DNA from: a virus
Virus record (IMG/VR): IMGVR_UViG_3300036857_000306
Coordinates: 1-42,018 of that record
Strand: one strand, 5' to 3'
Length of the DNA stretch: 42,018 nt
The notes below the pieces were generated by a model. It saw nothing but the letters and a program-made list of their open reading frames with translations, was not told the origin of the DNA and ran no database searches. Positions 128 to 42,018 of this stretch are shown here, one piece after another. A program made the translations under genes and the position numbers. Every line of letters starts with the position of its first letter. Position 1 is the stretch's first letter.

Positions 128-1030
128 CGTCGCGGAGGATTCGCTCCCATTCGAGGGAGTCCGGCCCGGGCGCGAAAATTTCATCTCCGCCGCCTCGTCC
201 AGCTGGCCGCGCCGCTGGCCTTCCCGAGCCGAGCCCTTGTGATCGTTCGCTCCCGTCGTTGGCCATCGATTGACCGCAACCGTCAGGTCCGCATAACCGT
301 CCGTCCGCGAGCGCGACGGACCGCCGCAATTGTTCGCGTTGTCCTCGATCGGCGTCGGCCAAAATCTCGCCTGCTGGTCGAGGCCCATTTCCTGCGAGCG
401 TTCGCCGCTCCTCGATCGGAACGAATCCGCTGACGGGGTCTGCCACAGTTCCGCTTGGCGATTCAGAAAAACTTCCTCGTTCCGTTCCCCTCCGCGATTC
501 GAGCGTTCCTCGCTGGTCGGCGTTTGCCACAGCCGAGCCTCGCTCGATAAATCCATCCCCGCGTGGCGCGTCTCCGATATCTCCCGCGCCAGATCGTTCT
601 GCCCTTCGACTCGCGGAGTCGCCCATTGCGACGTTTCCCGATTGAGACAGCGGCCCATCGTCGACGTCACACCGCCCTCGTCCGCAGTCGGCGTCGCCCA
701 CGAGGCCGATTGTTCCCGCAGATTCTGGAAACCGTTGTGGCCGTTGGAATAACTCGCCGTGTTCGCATCCGGCGTCGACCAGGTCCGCGCCTGCTGATTC
801 AGGATCGCGCCGTCCTTGCCCGGATTGCCTTCCGCCGTCCGGCTGCCGTCCTTGCTGTCCGCTCGCGGCGTCGCCCAGCTGCGCGTCGCGCCAGTCAGCG
901 AATCGTTCGCTGATGGATGATTGCCGCAAGATTCCGCGTCCTCGGACCGCGTCGACGGCCAAAATGAAAATGCGCTCGCGGAGATGCGAGGCTCCCACGG
1001 CGGCTGCGGATAGATGACACCACTCCGCAT
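1..1030 (-). CDS. Overlapping W-x-T-P repeat reading frame inside the cytosine methyltransferase gene; continues at 41830-41891
   Basis: Shifted +1 relative to the methyltransferase frame, this strand is open from ATG 1030 (GAGG five bases upstream), across the contig join, to TGA 41830: 363 residues. Between bases 961 and 263 it holds nine evenly spaced units of the form L-x-x-x-A-x-x-W-x-T-P-x-x-x-D/E (seven exact W-x-T-P; the first is WPST, the last WPTT), then a C-terminal LNPAFAAWLMG-MPWWWT segment. Such W-x-T-P units and an LNP..W.MG.P..WT ending are, from memory, found in phage cytosine methyltransferases. A hand count over bases 961-752 gives third-position G/C of about 80 percent here against about 69 percent in the methyltransferase frame. 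Its stop overlaps the next start as ATGA. It is either the true C-terminal half reached by a frameshift, or a dual-coded protein; a shadow is less likely. Confidence 0.55.
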   Translation of the reverse strand, partial: MRSGVIYPQPPWEPRISASAFSFWPSTRSEDAESCGNHPSANDSLTGATRSWATPRADSKDGSRTAEGNPGKDGAILNQQARTWSTPDANTASYSNGHNGFQNLREQSASWATPTADEGGVTSTMGRCLNRETSQWATPRVEGQNDLAREISETRHAGMDLSSEARLWQTPTSEERSNRGGERNEEVFLNRQAELWQTPSADSFRSRSGERSQEMGLDQQARFWPTPIEDNANNCGGPSRSRTDGYADLTVAVNRWPTTGANDHKGSAREGQRRGQLDEAAEMKFSRPGRTPSNGSESSATSRGSRRRLNPAFAAWLMGMPWWWTQPESIPFGQSAMESWRCR

Positions 1031-1466
1031 CGAAGCCTCGGTCGGCAAGATTTCGCAGGACGCAATTAAGTCCTCGTCCAGTAAGGAGGCCTGGCACATT
1101 CTCAAGAAAAACCGTGGGCGGTTCGACGTCTCCGATGATTCGGTCGATGGCCGGCCACAGCCATCGCTCGTCGTCGAAACCCTGCTGTTTTCCTGCGGCG
1201 CTCCACGGCTGGCACGGAAACCCCGCAGTAATGCAGTCCACTGCTCCACGCCACTCCCGGCTTCTGAAATCTTCAAGAGGTCCGCACCAAACAGGTGCCG
1301 CGCCCAGAGCCGCATCCTCCATCCGCGCCAAGAGAAGTCCCTCAGCGTGGGCTTCCCGCTCGACGAAACCCACAGTCCGCGCTTCGGGCAAAGCGATGCG
1401 AATTCCCTCATCGAGCATCGCTGTGCCGGAACAAAGGCTGAGCACAAAGAAGTCGGAATGAGCCAC
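1..1466 (-). CDS. DNA (cytosine-5) methyltransferase, N-terminal and central part; gene continues at 42018/41891
   Basis: This gene crosses the contig ends; joined with 41849-41891 it reads 502 residues. It starts at GTG 1466 after an AAGGAGG site. Seen in order: motif I (SLCSGTAMLDEGI), motif IV with the catalytic cysteine (AGFPCQPWS), the ENV motif VI (FLENVPG), motif VIII (ASHLRERIF) and, across the join, a motif X-like AIGNGVVALQAA. It should methylate cytosine C5 in DNA, for protection from host restriction or as an orphan methylase; the target is unknown. The part between motifs VIII and X is Arg/Gly-rich, with about ten spaced L/V-x-D-A elements. The same DNA is open in a second minus-strand frame (separate entry), so the product past about base 960 is uncertain: it may stay in this frame or switch. 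The catalytic half is secure. Confidence 0.9.
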   Translation of the reverse strand, partial: MAHSDFFVLSLCSGTAMLDEGIRIALPEARTVGFVEREAHAEGLLLARMEDAALGAAPVWCGPLEDFRSREWRGAVDCITAGFPCQPWSAAGKQQGFDDERWLWPAIDRIIGDVEPPTVFLENVPGLLTGRGLNCVLRNLADRGFDAEWCHLSAAAVGASHLRERIFILAVDAVRGRGILRQSSISERFADWRDAQLGDAASGQQGRQPDGGRQSGQGRRDPESAGADLVDAGCEHGELFQRPQRFPESAGTIGLVGDADCGRGRCDVDDGPLSQSGNVAMGDSASRRAERSGAGDIGDAPRGDGFIERGSAVANADQRGTLESRRGTERGSFSESPSGTVADPVSGFVPIEERRTLAGNGPRPAGEILADADRGQREQLRRSVALADGRLCGPDGCGQSMANDGSERSQGLGSGRPAARPAGRGGGDEIFAPGPDSLEWERILRDEPWLAPAIEPGFRCLVDGHAVVVDAARIDSLRAIGNGVVALQ

Positions 1467-1469
1467 AAT

Positions 1470-1616
1470 TCAGTCGGCCTCCTTCGGGAAAAAATGAAAT
1501 TGCAATCCGAAAAAACTCCACGCATCGCAGCGCCGGCACGAGCAGATCAGCCGCCGCGGTATCCAGCGGAATTGCTGGTTCTGTCCGAAACGCGAAATGG
1601 CGTACACGCGCAACAC
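1470..1616 (-). CDS. Small Cys-containing protein, 48 residues
   Basis: GTG start right after the stop of the upstream gene; its TGA lies three bases before the methyltransferase GTG, and the methyltransferase SD sits in its last codons. Predicted product begins MLRVYAISRFGQ and holds CSCRRC, a possible metal-binding knuckle, followed by an aromatic-rich end. I do not recognise a family. The tight packing supports it, but it is short and has no strong SD of its own. Confidence 0.45.
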   Translation of the reverse strand: MLRVYAISRFGQNQQFRWIPRRLICSCRRCDAWSFFGLQFHFFPKEAD

Positions 1617-1617
1617 G

Positions 1618-1896
1618 TCAAAAATGCTCCTCGCTCAATCGCGTCTGCAGAATTCCGGTGAAGCACGCCGGATGCATCGCGGCGAGCTCGCCGTGCTCCC
1701 GAAACAAAATGATCGGCACTTCGCAGAGTTCGCATCCCGCGCAAAACTCGTCGTGGTCCGCGTGGCGCGGATCTTCCTCCGGCGCTCCAATCGGGCGAGC
1801 GCAAACCGCGCAAACGCACGACTCGCAGCTGCAGCCCGGCAGTCCGCAGTAGTGCTTGGCCCAGCGGAGAATCTTCGAGCTGTCGACAATGAACAT
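1618..1896 (-). CDS. Cys-rich small protein, putative zinc-binding, 92 residues
   Basis: The product carries about a dozen cysteines in an ordered series: a cluster CGLPGCSCESCVCAVC, then CAGCELC, then HPAC. This layout suggests two zinc fingers or a ribbon with a second site, as in many small phage proteins. The start codon follows directly on the stop of the neighbouring gene (TGA then ATG at 1899-1894), so translation is probably coupled. No catalytic motif is visible. It sits just before the DNA methyltransferase in the early operon. Function unknown. Confidence 0.8.
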   Translation of the reverse strand: MFIVDSSKILRWAKHYCGLPGCSCESCVCAVCARPIGAPEEDPRHADHDEFCAGCELCEVPIILFREHGELAAMHPACFTGILQTRLSEEHF

Positions 1897-2271
1897 TCAG
1901 GCCGCCTTGCCGCCGAGCTTCCACACAATCGAAAAACGACCGCTCTCGCCTTTGCGCTTTTCGCCGGAATCGCGGATCAGGTTTTTCTCCACCAGCGGAC
2001 GGAAACGCGGACTGATACTCACCAGCTGCACGTCGAGCCGCTCCGCGACTTCGTGCGAGGTCAAACCGTCCGGCGCTTTCGCCAGCGTCTCCACAACTTT
2101 CAATTCGAGCTCGGCGGTCTTGACGCTGTGAGCGGCATCCTTCGCCGTCGCCGGATCGTTGCCGCGAGAGCGGCCATACTCGGTGCGCCACTTCTTGCGC
2201 CGGCGCGGACGCGGCGCCTCGGCGAAAAGACTGCCCTGACCGGCAGGCGGCGCGGTTTTCTTGCGCTTCAT
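1897..2271 (-). CDS. Winged-helix DNA-binding protein, 124 residues
   Basis: I start it at ATG 2271, which overlaps the previous stop as ATGA. The first 35 residues are very basic (RPRRRKKWR). Residues about 52-121 look like a winged-helix domain: a helix (ELKVVETLAKAPDGLTS), a recognition-helix region (HEVAERLDVQLVSISPRFRPLV) and a wing (RKGESGRFSIVW). This matches the general plan of phage proteins with a MarR/Gcr-like domain that tests a species-barrier style helix. It may regulate early genes or act in replication. No closer family assignment is possible by eye. Confidence 0.8.
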   Translation of the reverse strand: MKRKKTAPPAGQGSLFAEAPRPRRRKKWRTEYGRSRGNDPATAKDAAHSVKTAELELKVVETLAKAPDGLTSHEVAERLDVQLVSISPRFRPLVEKNLIRDSGEKRKGESGRFSIVWKLGGKAA

Positions 2272-2537
2272 GACGGAGTCCCCGGCGCCGCGGATTCGGC
2301 GATGAGCGCGTCTCGAAATTCGTAGGCCTCGCGGCGCAAGGCCGAAATTGTCTCGGTCGCCTTTTTCAGATCGCCGGTGCGTTGGCACTCGAACATGGCC
2401 TCGTCCATAATCCCGACGGTCGCGACAGCGCCGGCCATGAACACCTTGTGCACGCGGTCGATGTCTTGCGGAGACAGGCGGCTGAGGTCTTGTGGCGAAG
2501 CAAAGTCCGTCCAGGCCTTGAGCAGAGCGCGGATCAT
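2268..2537 (-). CDS. Hypothetical helical early protein, 89 residues
   Basis: Starts at ATG 2537, overlapping the preceding stop as ATGA; a start eight residues upstream is possible but lies inside the neighbour. The product is mostly helical, with a middle segment (DIDRVHKVFMAGAVATVGIMDEAMFECQRTGDL) that looks amphipathic, and no transmembrane run or cysteine cluster. It ends with an ATGA overlap into the winged-helix gene. I do not recognise the family. Confidence 0.75.
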   Translation of the reverse strand: MIRALLKAWTDFASPQDLSRLSPQDIDRVHKVFMAGAVATVGIMDEAMFECQRTGDLKKATETISALRREAYEFRDALIAESAAPGTPS

Positions 2538-2806
2538 TTCGGCACCGCCGCGACTGGCCACGCGAGGCCGTGTTTTTGCGCGAATTGTTCCGCGTGGACC
2601 GCGCAGAAGTGGCGCGTCGCAATGGTGCGGCGGCCTTTGATTCCGGTCGTATAGGAATAAGCGCCGGCGAAAAGAATTGGGAGATGGCAGGGATGGCGCG
2701 GGAAAGAGCCGGAGCAGATCGAGTAACCCTTGGCTCGCTGGTCCGCGTAAAACGCGACGTCAGCCGGCGAGAGCGCCGCGAGGGTAAATTCGGAGGCCGA
2801 TGACAT
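2534..2806 (-). CDS. Hypothetical protein with Cys/His pairs, 90 residues; first gene of the early operon
   Basis: The first minus-strand gene downstream of the attP region, so probably the head of the early operon. It holds CSGSFPRHPCHLP in the middle and HFCAVHAEQFAQKH near the end, a C-H-C-H arrangement consistent with one zinc site. The N-terminal ALSPADVAFYADQRAKGY segment is helical. Family unknown. No clear sigma70 promoter could be placed in front of it: the 160 bases upstream hold the attP repeats instead. Confidence 0.75.
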   Translation of the reverse strand: MSSASEFTLAALSPADVAFYADQRAKGYSICSGSFPRHPCHLPILFAGAYSYTTGIKGRRTIATRHFCAVHAEQFAQKHGLAWPVAAVPK

Positions 2807-2842
2807 GCCGCAAACCCCTACTCCGAACGAGCTGCGCGGCCT

Positions 2843-2863
2843 CCGCGTATCAGCCGCGTATCA
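2843..2863. repeat. Paired direct repeats CCGCGTATCA, left arm of attP
   Basis: Two copies of CCGCGTATCA at 2843-2852 and 2854-2863, spaced 11 bp (one helical turn) from start to start. The same unit recurs as a pair with the same 11-bp spacing at 3014-3034 on the other side of the tRNA-like core. Paired, helically phased repeats on both sides of a core are what arm-type integrase sites look like. Confidence 0.7.
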
Positions 2864-2864
2864 A

Positions 2865-2900
2865 GTTCTAGGATTTTTAGGGGTTCTAGGATTTTTGGGA
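2865..2900. repeat. Tandem 18-bp repeat (GTTCTAGGATTTTT unit)
   Basis: Two copies of an 18-base unit at 2865-2882 and 2883-2900; the first 14 bases, GTTCTAGGATTTTT, are identical. It lies between the left arm repeats and the attP core, a usual place for excisionase or host-factor (IHF/HU-like) sites. AT-rich compared with its surroundings. Confidence 0.6.
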
Positions 2901-2931
2901 GTTTGCGTTTTCAATAACTTACGAAATCCCG

Positions 2932-2968
2932 GTCGCGGGAGAGGGTACGAATCCCACCCTCTCCGCCA
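2932..2968 (+). other. attP: attP core: 3' end of a tRNA-Ser-like gene
   Basis: The plus strand reads like the T-arm, acceptor strand and CCA end of a tRNA: TACGAAT as T-loop, then CCCACCCTCTCCGCCA with CCTCTCCG as the acceptor 3' side. CTCTCCGCCA is typical of bacterial tRNA-Ser. There is no tRNA 5' half, so this is not a complete gene. A phage copy of a tRNA 3' end, 310 bp from the integrase stop and flanked by arm repeats, is best read as the integration core that restores the host tRNA gene on insertion. Confidence 0.8.
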
Positions 2969-3013
2969 TCCTAAAGCCCCCTCGTTTCAACACTTTGCTG
3001 AACGCGGTCGCCG

Positions 3014-3034
3014 CGAAGTATCAACCGCGTATCA
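3014..3034. repeat. Paired direct repeats, right arm of attP
   Basis: CGAAGTATCA (3014-3023, two or three mismatches) and CCGCGTATCA (3025-3034) repeat the left-arm pair in the same orientation and with the same 11-bp spacing, 46 bases beyond the tRNA-like core. Candidate integrase arm-binding sites. Confidence 0.65.
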
Positions 3035-3131
3035 AACCCAAAAAAAGCGCCGGCGCGAGCGCCCGTCGCCTGCAGGCATTCCCCGCGCAAGCCGCGAAAA
3101 GGCCGCCAGTGAGCCGCTGTGACGCGAGAAA

Positions 3132-3179
3132 CGCTAACCGTGGCGCTCACCGCACCGCTCACCGCACCGCTGACCGTGA
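3132..3179. repeat. Four degenerate 12-bp tandem repeats
   Basis: Two perfect copies of CGCTCACCGCAC (3144-3155, 3156-3167) with a diverged copy on each side (around 3132-3143 and 3168-3179). It lies between attP and the end of the integrase gene. It could be a protein-binding array or simple slippage; I see no gene here that I trust. Confidence 0.6.
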
Positions 3180-3206
3180 CGCGCCGCGCACGGTACAAAA
3201 GCGCCG

Positions 3207-3235
3207 AAGGCACCTGACAAACCGTCAGATGCCTT
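3207..3235 (-). terminator. Hairpin after the integrase gene, possible terminator
   Basis: AAGGCACCTGAC and GTCAGATGCCTT form an 11-of-12 bp stem with a five-base loop, about 45 bases past the integrase stop on the minus strand. The T-run after it is poor (only a later CTTTT), so termination may be weak, or the hairpin may stabilise the integrase mRNA end. Confidence 0.45.
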
Positions 3236-3277
3236 CCGAACGAAACCGCTCCGCGACTTGAGGCCGTACTCATTTTC

Positions 3278-4537
3278 CTATTTGGCCTTTCGCCACGCTA
3301 CCAGCTTGCCGTTTTTCGGCGCGAGCGCCGCGAGCGTCTTGTTGCCTTTCCACGTCGACGCAATGGCCTCGTCGAGCCGCGCCTGCCGCGTCTTACTCCA
3401 AGGATTGTAGTGCTTCTCGGCAACCGCGAGCGTATCGCCGAGCGCATCCGCGACTTCCTGCATGCTCTTTCCGGCCTCCAGCATGGCGACGGCAAACGTA
3501 TCACGAAACCGATGTGCGTGGCCTTGTTGAATTCCCGCGAGCCTGAACATTGCCGAGAGTTCGCCCTGCCAATGTTTCGTAGCCGTTTCGAGTTGACCGT
3601 TGCCGCTCCAGAACCAAAAGAGATCGCTCATCGGCGGACACTCCGCGAGCGCCTTCAAAACTTCCGGCGGCAGCGGCACATCGATGGTCCGGTCGGTCTT
3701 CCGGCAGTGCGCGATGCGGACGCGTCCCTCGCTCACCCACTCCATCTGGCAGCTGACCGCGTCGCTGATTCGCAAGCCGGAGAAAAGCAGGAAAAGCACC
3801 AGAGCGCGGAGCCGGACCGCGCTCACGCCGCCATCCTTCACGTCCGCGTCGAGCGTTTCCAGAATCTTCTTGAGTTCGGCGTCGGTGAACGGCGGCTTTT
3901 GCTTGTGCTTCACCTTCATCGGCCTCACCGTTTTCATCGGATTGGTTTTAATCCAATCGCGGTTGTGGAGGAAACGGCAAAATTGACGAAACCGCTCCAG
4001 CTTCTTCGCCGCCGCTTTCGGATTGTCCATGACCGTGCGGCCATTGGTCGGATGCAAGCGCTTCTCCGTCCAGGATGCGCGAAACGCGGCGATGAACGTG
4101 GCGTCGAGATCGCTCACCAGCGTCACGCGCCGCGCTTCGGCGAACACCGTGAGCTGGCCCGGCTTGTAGCATTCCTCCTTAGCCGGATCGCGCCGGAGGC
4201 CGTGCGGAGCCAAAAGCGTGCGGTGCTTCCGGCGCGTGGATTCGCGGAGCTTCAGGATTTCGGGATCGCGGAAATACTCGTGCAGCGCATGGTCGAGCGT
4301 GACCGGACCGGAGGCCGCTTGCTTGACGGCGACGGCGCTCAGGCCGCTGGTCCGGCGCTCGAACATAATGCGCTCGGCTTCATGCAAATCCCGCGTGTCG
4401 AGGGTCTCGAAGCCGCCGAATGGCCGCAGGTCGAGCGTGAACGCGCAACCGCATTTAAATTGCTTGCGGCGGTTCGGAACACCTTCCTGCGCGAGCGGAC
4501 AATCCTGCACGTGCCGCTTGATGAGGGTTATCGCCAT
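3278..4537 (-). CDS. int: Tyrosine-family site-specific integrase, 419 residues
   Basis: Catalyses attP x attB recombination for integration. Visible in order: an N-terminal CP...CGC zinc-like pair (residues about 13-31), a core-binding domain (about 80-200, with a typical FRQFCRFLHNRDWI stretch), and the catalytic domain with Arg256 (SGLRISDAV), Lys280, H342-x-x-R345 (AHRFRDTFA) and the nucleophile Tyr377 (AEKHYNPW). The usual second His (the GH before the Tyr) is Asp368 here (LGDTLAVAEKHY), a substitution tolerated in the family. It follows the excisionase gene by ten bases (SD GAGGAG), and its end faces attP 310 bp away, the standard integration cassette. Confidence 0.96.
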   Translation of the reverse strand: MAITLIKRHVQDCPLAQEGVPNRRKQFKCGCAFTLDLRPFGGFETLDTRDLHEAERIMFERRTSGLSAVAVKQAASGPVTLDHALHEYFRDPEILKLRESTRRKHRTLLAPHGLRRDPAKEECYKPGQLTVFAEARRVTLVSDLDATFIAAFRASWTEKRLHPTNGRTVMDNPKAAAKKLERFRQFCRFLHNRDWIKTNPMKTVRPMKVKHKQKPPFTDAELKKILETLDADVKDGGVSAVRLRALVLFLLFSGLRISDAVSCQMEWVSEGRVRIAHCRKTDRTIDVPLPPEVLKALAECPPMSDLFWFWSGNGQLETATKHWQGELSAMFRLAGIQQGHAHRFRDTFAVAMLEAGKSMQEVADALGDTLAVAEKHYNPWSKTRQARLDEAIASTWKGNKTLAALAPKNGKLVAWRKAK

Positions 4538-4547
4538 GACGCGCTCC

Positions 4548-4799
4548 TCACCCGGCCTCGGAGAGCTCCTTGTGTTTCCGGCGCACTACCGTGGCCGGAA
4601 CACGGAACGTGCGATAGGCACGGCGCGAGAATTTCGCCTTGCCCGTAATCACCAGCACGCCGGGCTCGTGCTCGAAGATTTTCCTCACGATTTGCTCCGA
4701 AAGATTCCACATCCGCGCAATCTCGATCACCGAATAATGCGGCTCCTGCGCTAGGTCTTCCCGCAGCTGCGCCTGAGCCGCCGATTGGTCGTTCGACAT
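4548..4799 (-). CDS. Excisionase-like HTH DNA-binding protein, 83 residues
   Basis: Residues about 20-55 form a MerR/excisionase-style helix-turn-helix (HYSVIEIARMWNLSEQIVRKIF), followed by a basic wing (GKAKFSRRAYRTFRVPATVVRRKHKEL). It is directly upstream of and co-oriented with the integrase, so a recombination directionality factor or an integrase regulator is likely. The SD is AAGGTGGG. An alternative is a small transcription regulator; the position favours Xis. Confidence 0.8.
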   Translation of the reverse strand: MSNDQSAAQAQLREDLAQEPHYSVIEIARMWNLSEQIVRKIFEHEPGVLVITGKAKFSRRAYRTFRVPATVVRRKHKELSEAG

Positions 4800-4866
4800 G
4801 GCCCACCTTGCTTGTTCGTCCTAAGATCACCTGTTTTCTCCCTTGCGTTTGTAGAGACTCAAACAA

Positions 4867-4902
4867 GTGTAATGCTATATCGAAACCGCTTCGTTTAGCA
4901 AG
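4867..4902 (-). promoter_or_regulatory. Promoter of the xis-int operon, sharing a conserved element with two other phage promoters
   Basis: On the minus strand, -35 TTGCTA (4902-4897) and -10 TATAGC (4880-4875) with a 16-bp spacer; an overlapping TACACT at 4872-4867 is an alternative -10. The stretch ACTTG..AAACGAAGCGG and the leader CGCAAGGGAGAAA also occur at the promoters near 28572 and 29115, so a common regulator is likely. The intergenic stretch 4903-5180 beyond it shows no gene I trust. Confidence 0.7.
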
Positions 4903-5180
4903 TCCGGCACACCCCTAGTGTGGCGGCGTGATTAACCCCTTGCACCTGAGCGGAATCCCCGTCTGCTGCGGAGGGAAGGCCAAACGGAAGCGCGTGTCGC
5001 GGCTGCGTGGGAGAGGCCGAGCCGAAATCTGAGAGCTCGCGCCGGAGTTAGAAAAGGGACAGCGCTTCCGAATTCCAGGCCCTTGCAGCGCTCGCAAGGA
5101 AAACAGGGAGTGAATCGGCGGTCAAGTGCAAATATTACGAGAGAGTACTACCGCCCTGTGGAAAAGTATTCGCGGCTCCA

Positions 5181-5200
5181 ACCTGTCAGTATTGACAGGT
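5181..5200. promoter_or_regulatory. Perfect inverted repeat, candidate repressor operator
   Basis: ACCTGTCA-GTAT-TGACAGGT: eight-base arms around four bases, fully symmetric. It sits in the about 500-bp gene-free region between the integrase promoter and the end of the late operon. Such a 20-bp dyad is the size of a phage or LexA-type operator. No promoter clearly overlaps it. Confidence 0.6.
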
Positions 5201-5241
5201 GCATCCGCGAATCGCCGCATAAAACGTGCTTGATAATCGAA

Positions 5242-5273
5242 ACGGCTTAAGCCGTTGGACGGCCTCTTTTTTT
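5242..5273 (+). terminator. Rho-independent terminator, probably bidirectional, at the end of the late operon
   Basis: On the plus strand GCCGT-TGG-ACGGC (5251-5263) is followed by CTC and seven T (5267-5273). Overlapping it, AACGGCTTAAGCCGTT (5241-5256) is a 16-base palindrome that can also fold on the minus strand, where late transcription arrives. No convincing plus-strand gene lies upstream, so its main use may be to insulate the late operon from the integrase region. Confidence 0.6.
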
Positions 5274-5309
5274 CCACAGGCACTGCCAATTATTTTTCTG
5301 GACAGCCCT

Positions 5310-5423
5310 TCATCCCTGTGCTGGTGGACGCGGTGATTTCTTTTTGCGCCATAGGTACACTCCTGCCACTACCAGCGTGGTTGCGATTGCAAGCAAGACC
5401 ACGAGCCAAATAGCGTGCGCCAT
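5310..5423 (-). CDS. Single-span small membrane protein, 37 residues; last late gene
   Basis: ATG 5423 follows a near-perfect SD (AGGAGGTGAG) 18 bases after the stop of the tail-tip gene. The product starts MAHAIWLVVLLAIATTLVVAG, a single hydrophobic span, then YLWRKKKSPRPP, a basic tail that would stay in the cytoplasm. No family recognised. Its place at the very end of the late operon would suit a lysis or membrane-interaction role, but nothing in the sequence proves it. Confidence 0.7.
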   Translation of the reverse strand: MAHAIWLVVLLAIATTLVVAGVYLWRKKKSPRPPAQG

Positions 5424-5440
5424 GACTCACCTCCTGTTTT

Positions 5441-8152
5441 TCATAACATTGCGGTCGTAAAGAGCTGCGGCTCGAAGCTATCAAGGCCTGCCGGAGCCGC
5501 TGCGCCAGTGTGGGAAAAGACCTTCAGCGTCGGCGCGAGCGTTGCGGTCGGATCGTCCAGCAGGTATTGCGCGTGCGTGTATGTGTAGGTCTCGACCGCA
5601 ATGGCGTCCACGCGCCGCTTCAAAGCGCCGCCGAGCCAAATTTCGACACTGAACGTCTGGCCGCTCTCGCCGGCGATATCGCCGGCATCCTGCAGCACCA
5701 GCGTCTGGTTCGCCGTTTGCGTCAGCCGATTCCGCGAGCTCCACGTGAACGTCAGATCGCCAGTGACGGACGGAGGCCGCACGCCGTAGCCGTTGCCTTG
5801 GATTCGGAGATTGCCGGGAGCAAACGGACGCAAGTAGCGCGAGCGCGTCGCCACGCTGACCGCCGCTGCGCTGGCGAGCGGATAGGTTCCTTTATTGTTG
5901 ACCGGCAAAAGTTTCGCCTGCACCGTCTGGTCAGCCGGATACACGTTCGTCTGCGTGAGGCCTTCGGCGAGCGAGAAAAACCAAACCAAAGCGCCCTGCG
6001 CGTGATCGGCAGGCACGGTGTCGAGCACGCCGCGCAACACGTCGGAAAAAGTAATGGAGCCGTCGCCATTCACGGTCTTGGTTTTCCACGAAATGATTTC
6101 GTCGTCGATCAGCGCGAGATTCGCGCCGGCGAAAAGTCCGGCATTGTCGGTCGAGGCCGGCAGCGTCAGATCTGCGCCCGTCGGTCCGACCGTGAAACCT
6201 GTGGCATCCCGCGCCGGCGTGGCCGCGTTGTAGGCCGCGGTGAGAATGCCGACTGGACAGAACGCCGCGAGGTCATTGGTCTCCGAATAGGTGCCGCTGA
6301 CGTTCTGCCAAACCTGAAAGTCGGTCGGCGTTCCATCCTGCCTCGCGCAAAGCGCGTACACCAGAATTCCCGCCGTCTGTCCCACCAGCGCGAGCGAATA
6401 CGGCACCTCCACGAGCCGCTGGAAGATCGGCGCGAGCGGAGGCCCGGACGGATTCACCCATCCCGAGGCCGGAGGCGGAGCGAAAGCCGCCGCCGAGATG
6501 CCGAACACGTCCTCCACGCACTCGATGCTGATTTTACCGTCGAGGAGCTCGCCCCAGGCGATGCGCGTGATGCGATAGATCAGCGCATTGATGCCGAGCG
6601 GCGTCCACGTGAATTTAAAGACGCCTCCGACGCGCCATTTCCAAGCGACGCGATTAGCCGCCAGCGTGAGCTTCGACAGTGGATAGGTCACCGCACGGAG
6701 CGCACGCGTGGCGATGAGCGCGGCGTCGGCGGAGTTCGACAGCATCTTAAAATCCATCGTTTCCGGTCGAGTCTCTCCGGTCAGCACCACGTTGGCGAGA
6801 TCGTGATTTTGCACCGTGCGCATCTGGTAGTCGGCGCCGCGGTCGATGTATTGCACGAAAATCTGATTGATCGTTTCGCCCCACTGCGCCCGCGAAAACT
6901 TCGGGAGCCCAAGAACGTTGTCCACGGTCAGCACCGGCACCGTCGACGGATCGTAATCGGCGCGGGCGAGCGTGATTGTCCACAGTCCGGTCAGCGGCTC
7001 CACGTACAGGAAACCGTCGATGTGCCGGAGGATTTCCGCGATGATCGAATCGGCGCTCGATGGCGTGTCCACCTGCGTGGAAATCCCGAGTCCCTCGTTT
7101 GCGAGCGTGACCGCCGCAGCTTTGAAATTATTGGCGTCGATATTCCCGAGCTGGACGCCCAAACCGTAATCGACGTTGGTGAGCAGATCGTGGATCGCCA
7201 GCACCGGATTGGCGTCCGCGCCGCCAGCGCCATCGGTATTGAGCCGAGCCACGCTGTTGCCCTGGCCGAACGGATCAGGGCAGCGCCGCACCACGAAATT
7301 GATCGGCTTCGGATACGCGCTGGTGCCGACATAAAACTGGTTCAGCACCGCGTAACACAGGTTTTTATAGTTCGGCGACACCCGCGCCGGCGTGGTCACC
7401 ACTTGGAATTGATCGTTCGTCACGAATTGGATGGAGCCTGTGGTGATCAAAAAATTTATTTTGCTCGAAGCGAAATTGGTGTCCGCAACCGCCGTGCCGA
7501 TGGAGCCGGAGACGGAGCCGGTCACCGAAAATTGCATGTGGCCGCTCGAGAGCGTTGTGGCTTTGATGGTGATCGTTTCGTTGACGCTGCCGGTGCCGGG
7601 CGCGAGAAACGCGAGGAAACCGTTGCCCGTTCCCGAATACGTCGGCGTCGACGGCACCGCGGTCTGCTTCGCCGAAAGATACGCGTCGCTCGGCTGCGTT
7701 TTCGTGCCGCGATAAAACGTGATCGTGCCGGCGAGGCCGCCACCCGATTTGTCGCCGCCGAAAAGCGATTTCTGGTCGACCGTCAGCGTCTGCGGATCGG
7801 AGCCGGAGCTGGTGTACGGCACCGGCTTGGCGTCGCATTGCAGCGCGAGCAAGTCCACGATTCCCTGACAGAGCGCGTATTGCACGCCGATGTAATACTT
7901 GTAGCCGACAACCGTCCCTCCGATTCCCAAAAAACTCCCGGCTTTCATCCCCTCGCTTCGCAGATCGCCCCACCAGACGGTGTTCCCTCCGGTGAGTTTG
8001 ACGGTGCCGAAAACTACCGGAATGGCGCGGCCCTCCTCCGCGGTCGGAAATTGGAAGTCGCCGAGAGCGCTCGGGCGCGTTTTATTCTTCGCCGCGAGCA
8101 GCGCGGAGATCACCGTCGTGGCCACGTATATGAGAAGCATTACCCAAAACAT
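5441..8152 (-). CDS. Central tail-tip / host-specificity protein, 903 residues
   Basis: Tail-tip baseplate hub, analogous to lambda gpJ and to the gene-transfer-agent tip protein. The N-terminus is hydrophobic (LLIYVATTVISALLAA), then FPTAEEGRAIPVVFGTVKLTGG, the usual start of this family. Residues about 265-560 resemble the phage-tail_3 hub region (AIHDLLTNVDYGLG; LYVEPLTGLWTITL; SRAQWGETINQIFVQYIDR). The rest is beta-rich and fibronectin-like, probably surface-exposed. Residues about 174-254 are an extra module that is shared with the tail protein at 11669-12844. It is preceded directly by the DUF2163-type tip protein, the standard order. Confidence 0.9.
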   Translation of the reverse strand: MFWVMLLIYVATTVISALLAAKNKTRPSALGDFQFPTAEEGRAIPVVFGTVKLTGGNTVWWGDLRSEGMKAGSFLGIGGTVVGYKYYIGVQYALCQGIVDLLALQCDAKPVPYTSSGSDPQTLTVDQKSLFGGDKSGGGLAGTITFYRGTKTQPSDAYLSAKQTAVPSTPTYSGTGNGFLAFLAPGTGSVNETITIKATTLSSGHMQFSVTGSVSGSIGTAVADTNFASSKINFLITTGSIQFVTNDQFQVVTTPARVSPNYKNLCYAVLNQFYVGTSAYPKPINFVVRRCPDPFGQGNSVARLNTDGAGGADANPVLAIHDLLTNVDYGLGVQLGNIDANNFKAAAVTLANEGLGISTQVDTPSSADSIIAEILRHIDGFLYVEPLTGLWTITLARADYDPSTVPVLTVDNVLGLPKFSRAQWGETINQIFVQYIDRGADYQMRTVQNHDLANVVLTGETRPETMDFKMLSNSADAALIATRALRAVTYPLSKLTLAANRVAWKWRVGGVFKFTWTPLGINALIYRITRIAWGELLDGKISIECVEDVFGISAAAFAPPPASGWVNPSGPPLAPIFQRLVEVPYSLALVGQTAGILVYALCARQDGTPTDFQVWQNVSGTYSETNDLAAFCPVGILTAAYNAATPARDATGFTVGPTGADLTLPASTDNAGLFAGANLALIDDEIISWKTKTVNGDGSITFSDVLRGVLDTVPADHAQGALVWFFSLAEGLTQTNVYPADQTVQAKLLPVNNKGTYPLASAAAVSVATRSRYLRPFAPGNLRIQGNGYGVRPPSVTGDLTFTWSSRNRLTQTANQTLVLQDAGDIAGESGQTFSVEIWLGGALKRRVDAIAVETYTYTHAQYLLDDPTATLAPTLKVFSHTGAAAPAGLDSFEPQLFTTAML

Positions 8153-8947
8153 CTAGACAATAGCCTCCGTGAAGGGATTGGTCAGCGGCACCAGATCGAA
8201 ACCTAAAAAGTTCGGCACGTTGTTATAGGACTGGCAAGCGGCATAGGTCAGCTGACAGCCTGCCGTTCCAGAGCAGGGATCGCCGCCCGCGAGGCCGGAG
8301 ATCGGCGAGAGCAGCGTGATGTTCGCGCCGGCTTGCGCGAGGATCATTCTCACGTCGCTGCCGCGCCTGAAATAGCCGCCTGCGAGCGAATGCGTCAACC
8401 CGGCAAACGCCGGCACCGTGACCGTGAGCCCGTCCGCGCTCACCGCCGAAACCAGGCCGGAGGTCGTGAAGTCGTTCAAATTGATTCCGCATCCCGCGTC
8501 GCCGAACACGTGGACGCACGGCGACTGGTACAGCTGCTTCGGGATTTTGCGCTGCAGAATGTACTGGTCGGAATTGACGATGATTTCGCATTCCGTCTCG
8601 ATCGCGGCGCTCGAAACCTTCCCGCTGAAAAGCGTTACCACTTCGGAGTCGCCATAGTGGCCTCCGAAAAGCGTGACCTGCATCGGCGAGGGTGTGAGAT
8701 ACGGGATCAGGAGATCGGCAATTTGCGAGTCCGGCGGTACATAGATTTTCAGCTGGCCGGAAATGACTTCGTTGGAATGTTCCACTTCCGAGCGCCGGAT
8801 CGTCGACGCCACATAGAGCTGGCCCAAGTAGGTCACATCGTCATCCGCGCTCGTGAGATAGAACGTCTGCTGGCCGGGTATGGCGAATTTGTAGAGCTCG
8901 AAGGCCTGCGATTGCGCGGTCGATTGTTCGACGCCGTCATAACTCAT
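8153..8947 (-). CDS. Tail-tip assembly protein of the DUF2163/BR0599 family, 264 residues
   Basis: Equivalent in order to lambda gpL, a tip protein known to bind an iron-sulfur cluster. N-terminal half: FELYKFAIPGQQTFYLTSADDDV and the beta strands of DUF2163. C-terminal half: the BR0599 pattern with SPCVHVFGDAGCG, then DPCSGTAGCQLTYAACQSYNNVPNFLGF. The conserved cysteines could hold a cluster or metal. The stop is next to the tail-tip start, and its own start overlaps the upstream gene (ATGA, 8944-8947). It acts at the distal end of the tail between the distal tail protein and the central tip. Confidence 0.88.
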   Translation of the reverse strand: MSYDGVEQSTAQSQAFELYKFAIPGQQTFYLTSADDDVTYLGQLYVASTIRRSEVEHSNEVISGQLKIYVPPDSQIADLLIPYLTPSPMQVTLFGGHYGDSEVVTLFSGKVSSAAIETECEIIVNSDQYILQRKIPKQLYQSPCVHVFGDAGCGINLNDFTTSGLVSAVSADGLTVTVPAFAGLTHSLAGGYFRRGSDVRMILAQAGANITLLSPISGLAGGDPCSGTAGCQLTYAACQSYNNVPNFLGFDLVPLTNPFTEAIV

Positions 8948-10656
8948 GGCAGTTCCCTCGGGAGCTCGCGCATCTCGATCACCGTCTGCGCGAGGTCATT
9001 GTTGAGCCAATCGATCTCCACGCTGTCGGCGTCGAGCCGCGCAAAGATAAGAAACGAAACCATCGTGGTTTTTGCCGGAAACGCCTTGGTCGAGATGGCA
9101 TCAAACACCAGCGTCTCGGTGCCGTCGCCGTTGTCGGTGGAGGTCGCAATTTTCCGGTACATGTTCGCGCTGCCGTCCATCGGGATCAGCGCCACATAGT
9201 GCCGAGCGTTCGCCGGGAACATGAAGCGCGAATAAAACTCGCTCTGGATTTTCATGCCGGTGTCGCTGAGCGCGACGTCCTGCGCGAGCACCAGGTCTTG
9301 GTCCCACGTGGGAATCCAGAACGGCTTCAGCTTGCCGAAACGGGCGAGGAAAAAAGCGCGGAGCGACGTGACCTGCGAATGATTCAGCATCAACCAGGGA
9401 AACGGCTGCGAGGTGATCGGCGTGCCGCCTTTGTCGATCACCGTGATCGGTCCCACCTGCGGATCGATGTGAATCAGGGAGCGCGAATATTTCCGCTTGA
9501 GATCGTCCGGCCATTGCGCCGGGAGCTCCAGCACGTCAAATCCCTTGTACTGCGTTAAAGATATCGCCGGAGCCGGAGCGTTCTGGCCGGCTTCGCCGGC
9601 GAAGTCCAGATCGATTTGATCGGCGCCGGAGAACAGCCGCGTCACGTCGATATCGTCCGGCAAGCGGCACAAAAAAACGGGCATGACCAGCGTCGTCGGT
9701 CCGGCCTTCCACGCATTCTGCGTGGGCGACGCGAGCGTCAGCGAAGTCGGTCCGACCGCAGTGACCTGCACGGCCTCGAATGTGAATTCGTCTTTCCACA
9801 GCGCGGCGATGCCGTTAGCCGCGAATTGGAAGTCGGTTGTATTTACTTGTATAGCTGTCGCGCCTGCCGCGGCATCGGCGAGCAGCGGAGAAACGTCCGG
9901 CCACCAGAGCACGCCGAACGGCTGCTGCTGCCATCCGAAGATCTGTGTCTCGACCGCGGCTGCTTCCCGAGCCGTCAATCCCTTGGCGCGGAAAGAAAGT
10001 CCACGGCGCGGCTGCTGCCGGAGCGCGCGCCGTTGCTCGGCGTCGGAATATGCCGGCAGCACGTCGGTGAGATATTCGATTTTTTCCTTGACGCCGTAGT
10101 CCCAATCGATGGGCGCGGAGAAAAGCACAATGCGCGAGCCGATGACAACCGTGTCCGCGCCTTGCTCGCCGCTCTGCCAGATAAACTCGATGTCCGCGTC
10201 GATTTGCGGACCGCCAGTGTGCGACACCAGCACCTGATAGACGCGAGAATGCTGCGCCCCATAGAACGTCGGGAGCGCGAAAGGATTCTGCACCACGATA
10301 TCGCCCGGTCCCAACACATCGATGGCCGAAAGAATTTTTCCGATGTTGCGGAAAGTGTTCCAGGCCTCCACGGCAAACTGCGTGTCGGTAATCACGAAGC
10401 CGACATTTGCGGTGCGCGGATTCACCAGAATGCGCTCGAAGATTTGTCCTCCGGCGAGCTCCTCGTAAATCCCAGGAATCGAACCTGTGACCGGATGCAC
10501 CACGCCCGGTCCGGTGTTCGCGCCGCAGAACGAACGCACGCGCTGCGTGACGCCGAGCGTTCCGGCAGTAAACAAGATCGTCGAGAGATCGCCGCTTACG
10601 TTGAACGGCGCAATCCGCACGCCGCCTCTCAGATCGATGCCGGAAAAGTCCGCCAT
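8944..10656 (-). CDS. Distal tail protein, 570 residues
   Basis: Lies between the tail fibre-like paralogs and the tip proteins, the position of a distal tail/lambda gpM-like protein. It begins with GIDLRGGVRIAPFNVSGDLS and has a middle segment (VKEKIEYLTDVLPAYSDAEQR, then GWQQQPFGVLWWPD) typical of phage tail proteins that adapt the tube to the tip. Beta-rich throughout, no membrane span, few cysteines. The homology is judged from order and style, not from a clear domain, so the exact structural role is uncertain. Confidence 0.75.
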   Translation of the reverse strand: MADFSGIDLRGGVRIAPFNVSGDLSTILFTAGTLGVTQRVRSFCGANTGPGVVHPVTGSIPGIYEELAGGQIFERILVNPRTANVGFVITDTQFAVEAWNTFRNIGKILSAIDVLGPGDIVVQNPFALPTFYGAQHSRVYQVLVSHTGGPQIDADIEFIWQSGEQGADTVVIGSRIVLFSAPIDWDYGVKEKIEYLTDVLPAYSDAEQRRALRQQPRRGLSFRAKGLTAREAAAVETQIFGWQQQPFGVLWWPDVSPLLADAAAGATAIQVNTTDFQFAANGIAALWKDEFTFEAVQVTAVGPTSLTLASPTQNAWKAGPTTLVMPVFLCRLPDDIDVTRLFSGADQIDLDFAGEAGQNAPAPAISLTQYKGFDVLELPAQWPDDLKRKYSRSLIHIDPQVGPITVIDKGGTPITSQPFPWLMLNHSQVTSLRAFFLARFGKLKPFWIPTWDQDLVLAQDVALSDTGMKIQSEFYSRFMFPANARHYVALIPMDGSANMYRKIATSTDNGDGTETLVFDAISTKAFPAKTTMVSFLIFARLDADSVEIDWLNNDLAQTVIEMRELPRELP

Positions 10657-41833: not shown

Positions 41834-42018
41834 GAGCTCCTCCCGTTTTCAAACTCCGAGACGCCGAGCAAGTACGACAAACGCAACCGCAGCCTGCAGC
41901 GCCACGACTCCATTGCCGATTGCCCGAAGGGAATCGATTCTGGCTGCGTCCACCACCACGGCATGCCCATCAACCAGGCAGCGAAAGCCGGGTTCAATCG
42001 CCGGCGCGAGCCACGGCT
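41830..42018 (-). CDS. C-terminal end of the W-x-T-P repeat frame (joined to 1-1030)
   Basis: Continuation of the frame from base 1. It contains the C-terminal segment with LNPAFAAWLMG, MPWWWT and MESWRCRLRLRL and ends at TGA 41830, which overlaps the HTH gene start (ATGA at 41830-41833). Bases 41892-42018 repeat 1-127. Confidence 0.5.
   Translation of the reverse strand, partial: SRGSRRRLNPAFAAWLMGMPWWWTQPESIPFGQSAMESWRCRLRLRLSYLLGVSEFENGRSS
41849..42018 (-). CDS. C-terminal end of the DNA cytosine methyltransferase (joined to 1-1466)
   Basis: Continuation of the C5 methyltransferase frame across the contig join: DSLRAIGNGVVALQAAVAF and VVLARRLGV, with a motif X-like GNGVVALQ, ending TGA 41849. 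The whole gene is then 1,509 bases. Bases 41892-42018 repeat 1-127. Confidence 0.75.
   Translation of the reverse strand, partial: PWLAPAIEPGFRCLVDGHAVVVDAARIDSLRAIGNGVVALQAAVAFVVLARRLGV
41892..42018. repeat. Terminal redundancy, right copy
   Basis: Exact second copy of bases 1-127; see the left copy. Removing one copy gives a circle of 41,891 bp. Confidence 0.95.

Follow-up and report, generated by a model that had tools for sequence, protein, structure and literature searches.

The window analysed here, a virus record of 42,018 bp, codes for a lambda-type portal, a gpA terminase, and capsid and tail proteins, and carries an exact direct terminal repeat of 127 bp (1-127 and 41892-42018). 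The length of this repeat is that of a common assembly k-mer and the first bases of the record recur at its end; the genome is therefore most likely circular and complete, with 41,891 bp. Near one end of the window, a small predicted DNA-binding gene and a tyrosine integrase gene lie on the minus strand, followed past the integrase stop codon by a compact region in which a tRNA-Ser 3' end is flanked by paired direct repeats (Table 1). We assign a probability of about 0.93 to the reading that 2843-3035 is a complete attP, which serves the integrase encoded at 3278-4537 in a temperate soil virus whose hosts are probably Acidobacteriota. Because the record is circular, the attP is intact, and the presence of both arms inside one circular genome is the unintegrated form of such a site. 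Arm repeats occur on both sides of the core, as in a lambda-type attP, and the site is of this type with a family-specific layout. The first-pass annotation, made from the letters alone, had described a complete-looking attP located 310 bp from the integrase stop; both statements hold, given the intact parts, the circular record, the family-standard distances, and the interval between the end of the core (2968) and the integrase ORF (3278).

Table 1. Features of the attachment region and the adjoining genes (positions in the 42,018-bp window)
Feature	Position	Strand	Remark
P-arm pair, predicted integrase arm-type sites: two direct CCGCGTATCA, 11 bp apart	2843..2864	+	Same place in 8/8 attPs
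Array of tandem repeats (2 x 18 bp = 4 x 9 bp), predicted to dock a directionality factor	2865..2900	+	Lag-9/18 periodicity at this place in other attPs
IHF-like bend site TTTCAATAACTTA, 8/9 consensus positions	2909..2921	+	Function putative
Core: 10-bp inverted half-sites, 9/10 complementary, around predicted 7-bp overlap CGAATCC (2948-2954)	2938..2964	+	Cut positions predicted
Exact tRNA-Ser 3' end, T-loop C56 to CCA, CGAATCCCACCCTCTCCGCCA	2948..2968	+	21/21 bp
IHF-like bend site TTTCAACACTTTG, 8/9 consensus positions	2985..2997	+	Function putative; family matches cluster at same offset
P'-arm pair, predicted: two GTATCAA, 11 bp apart	3018..3035	+	
Tyrosine integrase (419 aa) with a predicted arm-binding domain at its N-terminus	3278..4537	-	
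Winged-helix protein, 83 aa, directly upstream of the integrase gene; candidate directionality factor	4548..4799	-	Function predicted

The arm repeats of the window are unusual in both quality and arrangement. Exact copies of CCGCGTATCA are found at 2843, 2854 and 3025 and nowhere else in the window, and the copy at 3014 (CGAAGTATCA) is identical at 8 of 10 positions. Two pairs of this 10-bp repeat with 11-bp spacing had been noted as likely arm sites: the pair at 2843/2854 is exact in both copies, whereas in the pair at 3014/3025 only the second copy is, and the pair is better placed at 3018/3029, where GTATCAA is exact. The segments 2847-2864 and 3018-3035 are identical at 17 of 18 positions. 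A four-copy arrangement of such quality at lag 11 (copies starting 11 bp apart) occurs once in the window and is absent from all 5000 simulated 240-bp regions and all 40 simulated 42-kb windows. The 18-bp tandem repeat previously reported at 2865-2900 is real (the copies at 2865 and 2883 share 16 of 18 bases), but a weaker 9-bp period is present besides, and the segment is better read as an array of that period. Matches to eight of nine positions of the IHF consensus number 13 in the whole window; apart from the two listed in Table 1, two further matches, at 2859 and 3019, overlap the arm repeats. Between the integrase stop and the attP lie tandem 12-bp repeats (3132-3191; CGCTCACCGCAC) and a 13-bp inverted repeat with a 5-bp loop (3206-3236), possibly the end of the integrase transcript.

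The core had been delimited as a tRNA-Ser-like stretch at 2932-2968, of which only the exact tRNA-Ser end stands and the remainder is phage sequence. Position 2947 is A where the tRNA has T at position 55, and 2938-2946 is an inverted repeat of 2956-2964 and not a T-stem. As expected for an attP, ARAGORN found no intact tRNA and Rfam gave no match in the window. The core dyad taken alone is within chance, with seven such dyads in the window against 2.85 expected. The first-pass annotation proposed to search for a host tRNA-Ser ending in 2939-2968, but 2939-2947 is not host tRNA sequence and a literal search would therefore fail. Insertion into a host tRNA-Ser gene, as claimed there, is supported by relatives residing at tRNA-Ser with the same 21-bp end (beside integrase relatives in L203, L216 and L221). 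Among the eight complete attPs described below, three (L002, L297 and L336) retain TTC at the C56 boundary, and in the other five (the window, L217, L230, L259 and L302) the base before C56 is not the T of the tRNA, with tRNA identity running from C56 onward. Since strand exchange needs identical bases, the overlap is placed from C56 onward, and exchange would occur within CGAATCC in the window; the overlap length of 7 bp is presumed by analogy with lambda Int.

The exact 28-bp tRNA-Ser 3' end GTGGGTTCGAATCCCACCCTCTCCGCCA was identified in 128 of 297 Acidobacteriota genomes, but at least 119 viral stretches from many different sources contain its last 21 bases, so the tRNA-Ser end does not name the host. 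The virus is probably one of Acidobacteriota because of its integrase family, whose members come almost exclusively from genomes of this phylum. Neither an integrated copy of this exact phage nor a close host genome was found among the genomes searched. Relatives of the portal protein were detected in 11 of 396 Acidobacteriota genomes; a related integrase is present on 1 of 16 contigs carrying portal relatives, and no tRNA end was found near the integrase of that contig.

The integrase matches Pfam PF00589, and its residues R256, K280, H342, R345 and Y377, corresponding to the catalytic R, K, HxxR and Y, are invariant or nearly so among 31 sequences. Its structural model (mean pLDDT 89.5) comprises strands at residues 4-7, 33-37 and 42-45 and a helix at 51-63, followed by core-binding and catalytic domains, and its best structural match is full-length lambda Int (1z1b, E 7e-10; 14-15% identical). 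The protein is thus predicted to be a lambda-type (heterobivalent) integrase with an arm-binding N-terminal fold. Inside this predicted domain, residues 9, 13, 29 and 31 are H, C, C and C, nearly invariant in 31 relatives, and could form a metal site. Residue 368, after LG, is Asp in the window integrase and its three closest relatives, where the family consensus has His. A single-protein search of viral contigs yielded no relatives of the integrase; plasmids contained no match, nor did the PDB when searched by sequence. In a collection of species genomes, 44 loci with integrase relatives were identified, 42 of them titled as Acidobacteriota groups and two (L189 and L220) from one bin titled Betaproteobacteria; relatives in genomes are 28-52% identical on the best segment. 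On contig L105/L169, which encodes a 48% identical integrase, the tRNA-Ser end is the same as in the window, and a separate pair with 11-bp spacing lies past the integrase stop codon.

Junctions between tRNA genes and integrase genes are numerous among these relatives. In a set of 91 loci (L169-L231 and L244-L271, from species genomes, viral sequences and further Acidobacteriota), a complete tRNA T-arm faces the integrase within 700 nt in 61; together with the window and L105 these make 63, or 49 regions after removal of redundancy. Intact target tRNAs of the relatives include those for Ser, Leu, Cys, Lys, Phe, Ala and Met. The tRNA lies on the C-terminal side of the integrase gene in 22 of the 49 regions (the class of the window) and on the N-terminal side in 27. 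A search with the arm pattern GTATCANCCGCGTATCAA matched one viral contig (L272), which was discarded as a relative attP for lack of a tRNA-like core, by eye, in the matched stretch.

Across this family the spacing of the arm repeats is fixed and their letters are not. A direct repeat of at least 6/7 identical bases at lag 11 is present in 42 of the 49 regions, compared with 1-5 regions at each other lag from 7 to 29, and a perfect 7/7 repeat is present in 24 regions at lag 11 and in 0 to 1 at other lags. Pairs whose first copy lies 60-80 nt from the T-loop occur at lag 11 in 38 regions and at lags 8-10 and 12-16 in 0-4; 37 of these 38 pairs start 68-72 nt from the T-loop, ties having been broken toward 69. 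This conservation of spacing and position supports the earlier assignment of the repeats as likely arm sites. The repeat itself is element-specific (GTGTACC, GTATCAA, TGTGCCA, CGTTCCA, TTGTGCT, TTGCCTT and more). Eleven regions have no pair at the expected place (L175, L198, L205, L211, L218, L227, L231, L252, L253, L264 and L267), some of which have a pair of 5/7 or at another offset. IHF-like sites matching the consensus at 8/9 or better occur in 19 of the 49 regions (shuffle mean 3.2, maximum 8); ten plus-strand matches, that of the window included, start 38-40 nt from the T-loop. The window and several other attPs have such sites on either side of the core. In a co-evolution test of 28 members, similarity of the arms correlated with that of the N-terminal domain given the catalytic domain (partial r 0.19; 13/1000 permutations). 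This does not demonstrate a specific link between the two, as the catalytic domain given the N-terminal domain correlates as much (partial r 0.23), suggesting that the arms mainly follow descent.

Complete attPs were sought by scanning loci for two lag-11 pairs 150-200 bp apart. The gap between pairs is 171 bp in the window, 172 in the isolated Tunturiibacter phage Tunturi_4 (L002; PP885687), 168 in L217, 169 in L230 and 179 in L259. A later scan of 35 new contigs, of which 20 offered 900 bp on either side, recovered three with the arrangement near the integrase at lag 11 (L297, 172; L302, 172; L336, 168) and none at lags 9, 10, 12 or 13. All eight attPs follow one plan, consisting of an arm pair, a 9-bp-periodic array, a core beginning at C56 and a second arm pair; counted from C56, the P pair starts between -105 and -101 and the P' pair between +64 and +77 in 8/8. 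In the spacer separating the P arms from the core, six of the eight (L002, L217, L230, L297, L302 and L336) have lag 9 as their strongest period; in the window it is second to its double, 18, and in L259 third after 10 and 19. Pooled over the eight attPs, the match is 0.56 at lag 9, 0.51 at lag 18 and 0.20-0.31 at other lags, and none of 2000 shuffles reaches the lag-9 value. For single attPs, the number of 2000 shuffles reaching the observed value is 0 for the window, L002, L302 and L336 and 5 for L297; it is 50 for L217 and 52 for L230, which are weak and mutually related, and 229 for L259, which is not significant. The idea of a 9-bp period came from the first five attPs and the spacer bounds were set after all eight had been printed; the last three (L297, L302 and L336) were picked by the arm rule alone.

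Several further candidates were set aside. Two other phages (L047, at 8837, and L078, at 5196) carry lag-11 pairs on either side of a tRNA-Ser core, but at different distances, and no relative of the integrase was found there; they were not accepted as family attPs, and their pairs indicate that 11-bp pairing is wider than this integrase family. Four hits of the four-copy scan (L071, L109, L113 and L134) were dropped as low-complexity or repeat runs by look. In L239, a 9-kb island (595-9598) lies between two copies of the tRNA-Ser end, and its genes look, by eye, like AbiEi/AbiEii-type defence pairs; it was not accepted as a clean case of attL and attR, since the arm-like repeats at its two ends differ, and these ends seem to derive from different elements.

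The protein encoded directly upstream of the integrase gene, whose ORF ends 10 bp from it, is a candidate and probable directionality factor. It has no Pfam match above the cut-off and no NCBIfam match, and its model adopts a winged-helix fold (pLDDT 82). Fold neighbours at Z 4.3-6.8 include RacA, BldC, MerR proteins, Pukovnik Xis, RdfS and a P2 protein (4lhf), with Z 6.2 for BldC, 5.3 for Pukovnik Xis and 5.0 for RdfS, scores similar to those for MerR proteins; Foldseek with the model gave 0 matches at E <= 0.001. P2 Cox is a winged-helix protein that acts in excision and has Cox boxes. The winged-helix proteins BldC and RdfS act on 9-bp direct repeats or in excision, according to the available text of PMC11963761. 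Compared with P2 Cox, BldC and RdfS, the similarity of the 83-aa protein is low (Z 4.3-6.2) and shared with other MerR-like folds. Winged-helix relatives are encoded within 900 bp of the integrase gene in 23 of 49 loci (48 att loci and Tunturi_4), as counted with a profile built from some of these same loci. Where found, the gene lies upstream on the integrase strand in 12/12 loci of the C-terminal class, and downstream and convergent with the integrase in 10/11 of the N-terminal class. In Tunturi_4, an ORF of this family lies about 65 bp past the integrase match on the minus strand (hmmsearch 4.8e-11) and does not appear as such in the annotation; gp99 of this phage was rejected as a relative, since hhalign with the winged-helix alignment gave nothing.

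The array probably provides docking sites for the directionality factor, but its position alone does not name its binder, and a Fis-like protein, extra integrase or a phage repressor might occupy it instead, in which case the remaining attP reading would stand. This alternative deserves to be taken seriously, though we consider it the lesser prospect: a search of the 46 loci with room for it left 23 in which no winged-helix gene was found within reach, and the structural search returned no significant match. On the other hand, the winged-helix class includes oligomerising directionality factors, BldC binds 9-bp direct repeats (PMC11963761, available text), and the gene moves with the att side in the two classes. 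On balance, we lean towards the view that this Acidobacteriota integrase family obeys one rigid att rule, which fixes the distances but leaves the letters of arms and array free to drift, and that a hitherto unnamed winged-helix factor encoded next to the integrase reads the array.

Two other readings concern the site itself and are both improbable. The window site might be the decayed att remnant of an earlier element rather than the working attP of this phage, since its tRNA match spans only 21 bp, its left half-site is not tRNA sequence, and its core lies 310 bp from the integrase gene, compared with 17-206 nt between T-loop and integrase match in C-terminal relatives. However, none of the parts is damaged and their distances are those usual in the family, four further attPs likewise have a left half-site that departs from the tRNA just 5' of C56, and the record is circular, which makes decay very unlikely. 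It is hardly credible, either, that the lag-11 repeats are sites of an integrase regulator and flank the core only incidentally. In the N-terminal class the pair does lie just upstream of the integrase gene, where autoregulation of the KplE1 type acts (PMC2951348, available text), yet in the C-terminal class, the window included, it lies past the 3' end of this gene at the same distance from the tRNA, indicating that the position of the pair follows the core and not the promoter.

The working model for the attP resembles that of lambda, with protein binding, cut positions and the identity of the factor as predictions. For integration, the N-terminal domain of the integrase would grip the paired arm sites on each side, as in lambda, an IHF/HU-like bending protein would fold the stretches separating these arms from the core, and the catalytic domains would exchange strands in CGAATCC with the same seven bases of the host tRNA-Ser gene. 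The phage 3' end would take the place of the identical host one, so the tRNA would stay intact. For excision, the winged-helix protein encoded beside the integrase probably binds the 9-bp array between the P arms and the core.

In the lambda attP, both P and P' contain arm sites, IHF has the sites H2 and H', and Xis the sites X1, X1.5 and X2 (in part after PMC4880445). The window shares with it a two-target integrase with a predicted N-terminal arm-binding fold, arms, putative bend sites and inverted half-sites, a predicted small DNA-binding gene beside the integrase and an attP past the 3' end of the integrase gene, and its array sits at the place of the lambda Xis sites, where a factor may likewise bind. 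It differs in that its arms form two pairs, each exactly 11 bp apart and at fixed distances, its array has a 9-bp period and its target is a tRNA T-loop. Adjacent arm-site pairs on each side of the core are also a feature of the L5 attP (paired arm-type sites) and of Tn916 (paired DR2). The likeness of the window to mycobacteriophage L5 and Tn916 noted here is in this pairing, and their integration systems are not known to be related to that of the window. In KplE1 (IntS/TorI) and other prophages the target is a tRNA, and both orientations of the gene relative to att occur (PMC2951348, available text). The window shares the tRNA gene target, and the N-terminal class of its family has the KplE1 layout, whereas the window itself is oriented as in lambda and its arm and factor sites are arranged differently. 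Tunturi_4 has the same attP plan as the window with a 24% identical integrase, but uses another tRNA 3' end as core, a different arm repeat (TTGGGAAAG) and an att site on the N-terminal side of the integrase gene. In the available text of the Tunturi_4 paper (PMC11924767) no word begins with 'att', so the att site is not described there.

The attP itself is lambda-type; the novelty lies in a layout held constant across the family, in the array of 9-bp period and in the candidate factor, and the open-access literature searched yielded no paper describing an attP of an Acidobacteriota integrase at a tRNA. Attachment sites are usually mapped phage by phage, and recognising a directionality factor is difficult. 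The common geometry of the dozens of natural sites described here directly reveals the arm sites, the core and the probable array for the factor. If the proposed rule holds, the attP, the factor and its sites would be predictable from sequence alone for any family member. Genetic tools are scarce for Acidobacteriota, and the family offers targets that can be tested for building integration tools in this phylum. Its members also form a natural series in which changes in the specificity of integrase arm-binding domains can be studied. Elsewhere in the window, an ORF on the minus strand (3-1466) crosses the end of the circle; its start resembles a cytosine-C5 DNA methyltransferase, and its long middle part contains many repeated GDA/ADA-like motifs.
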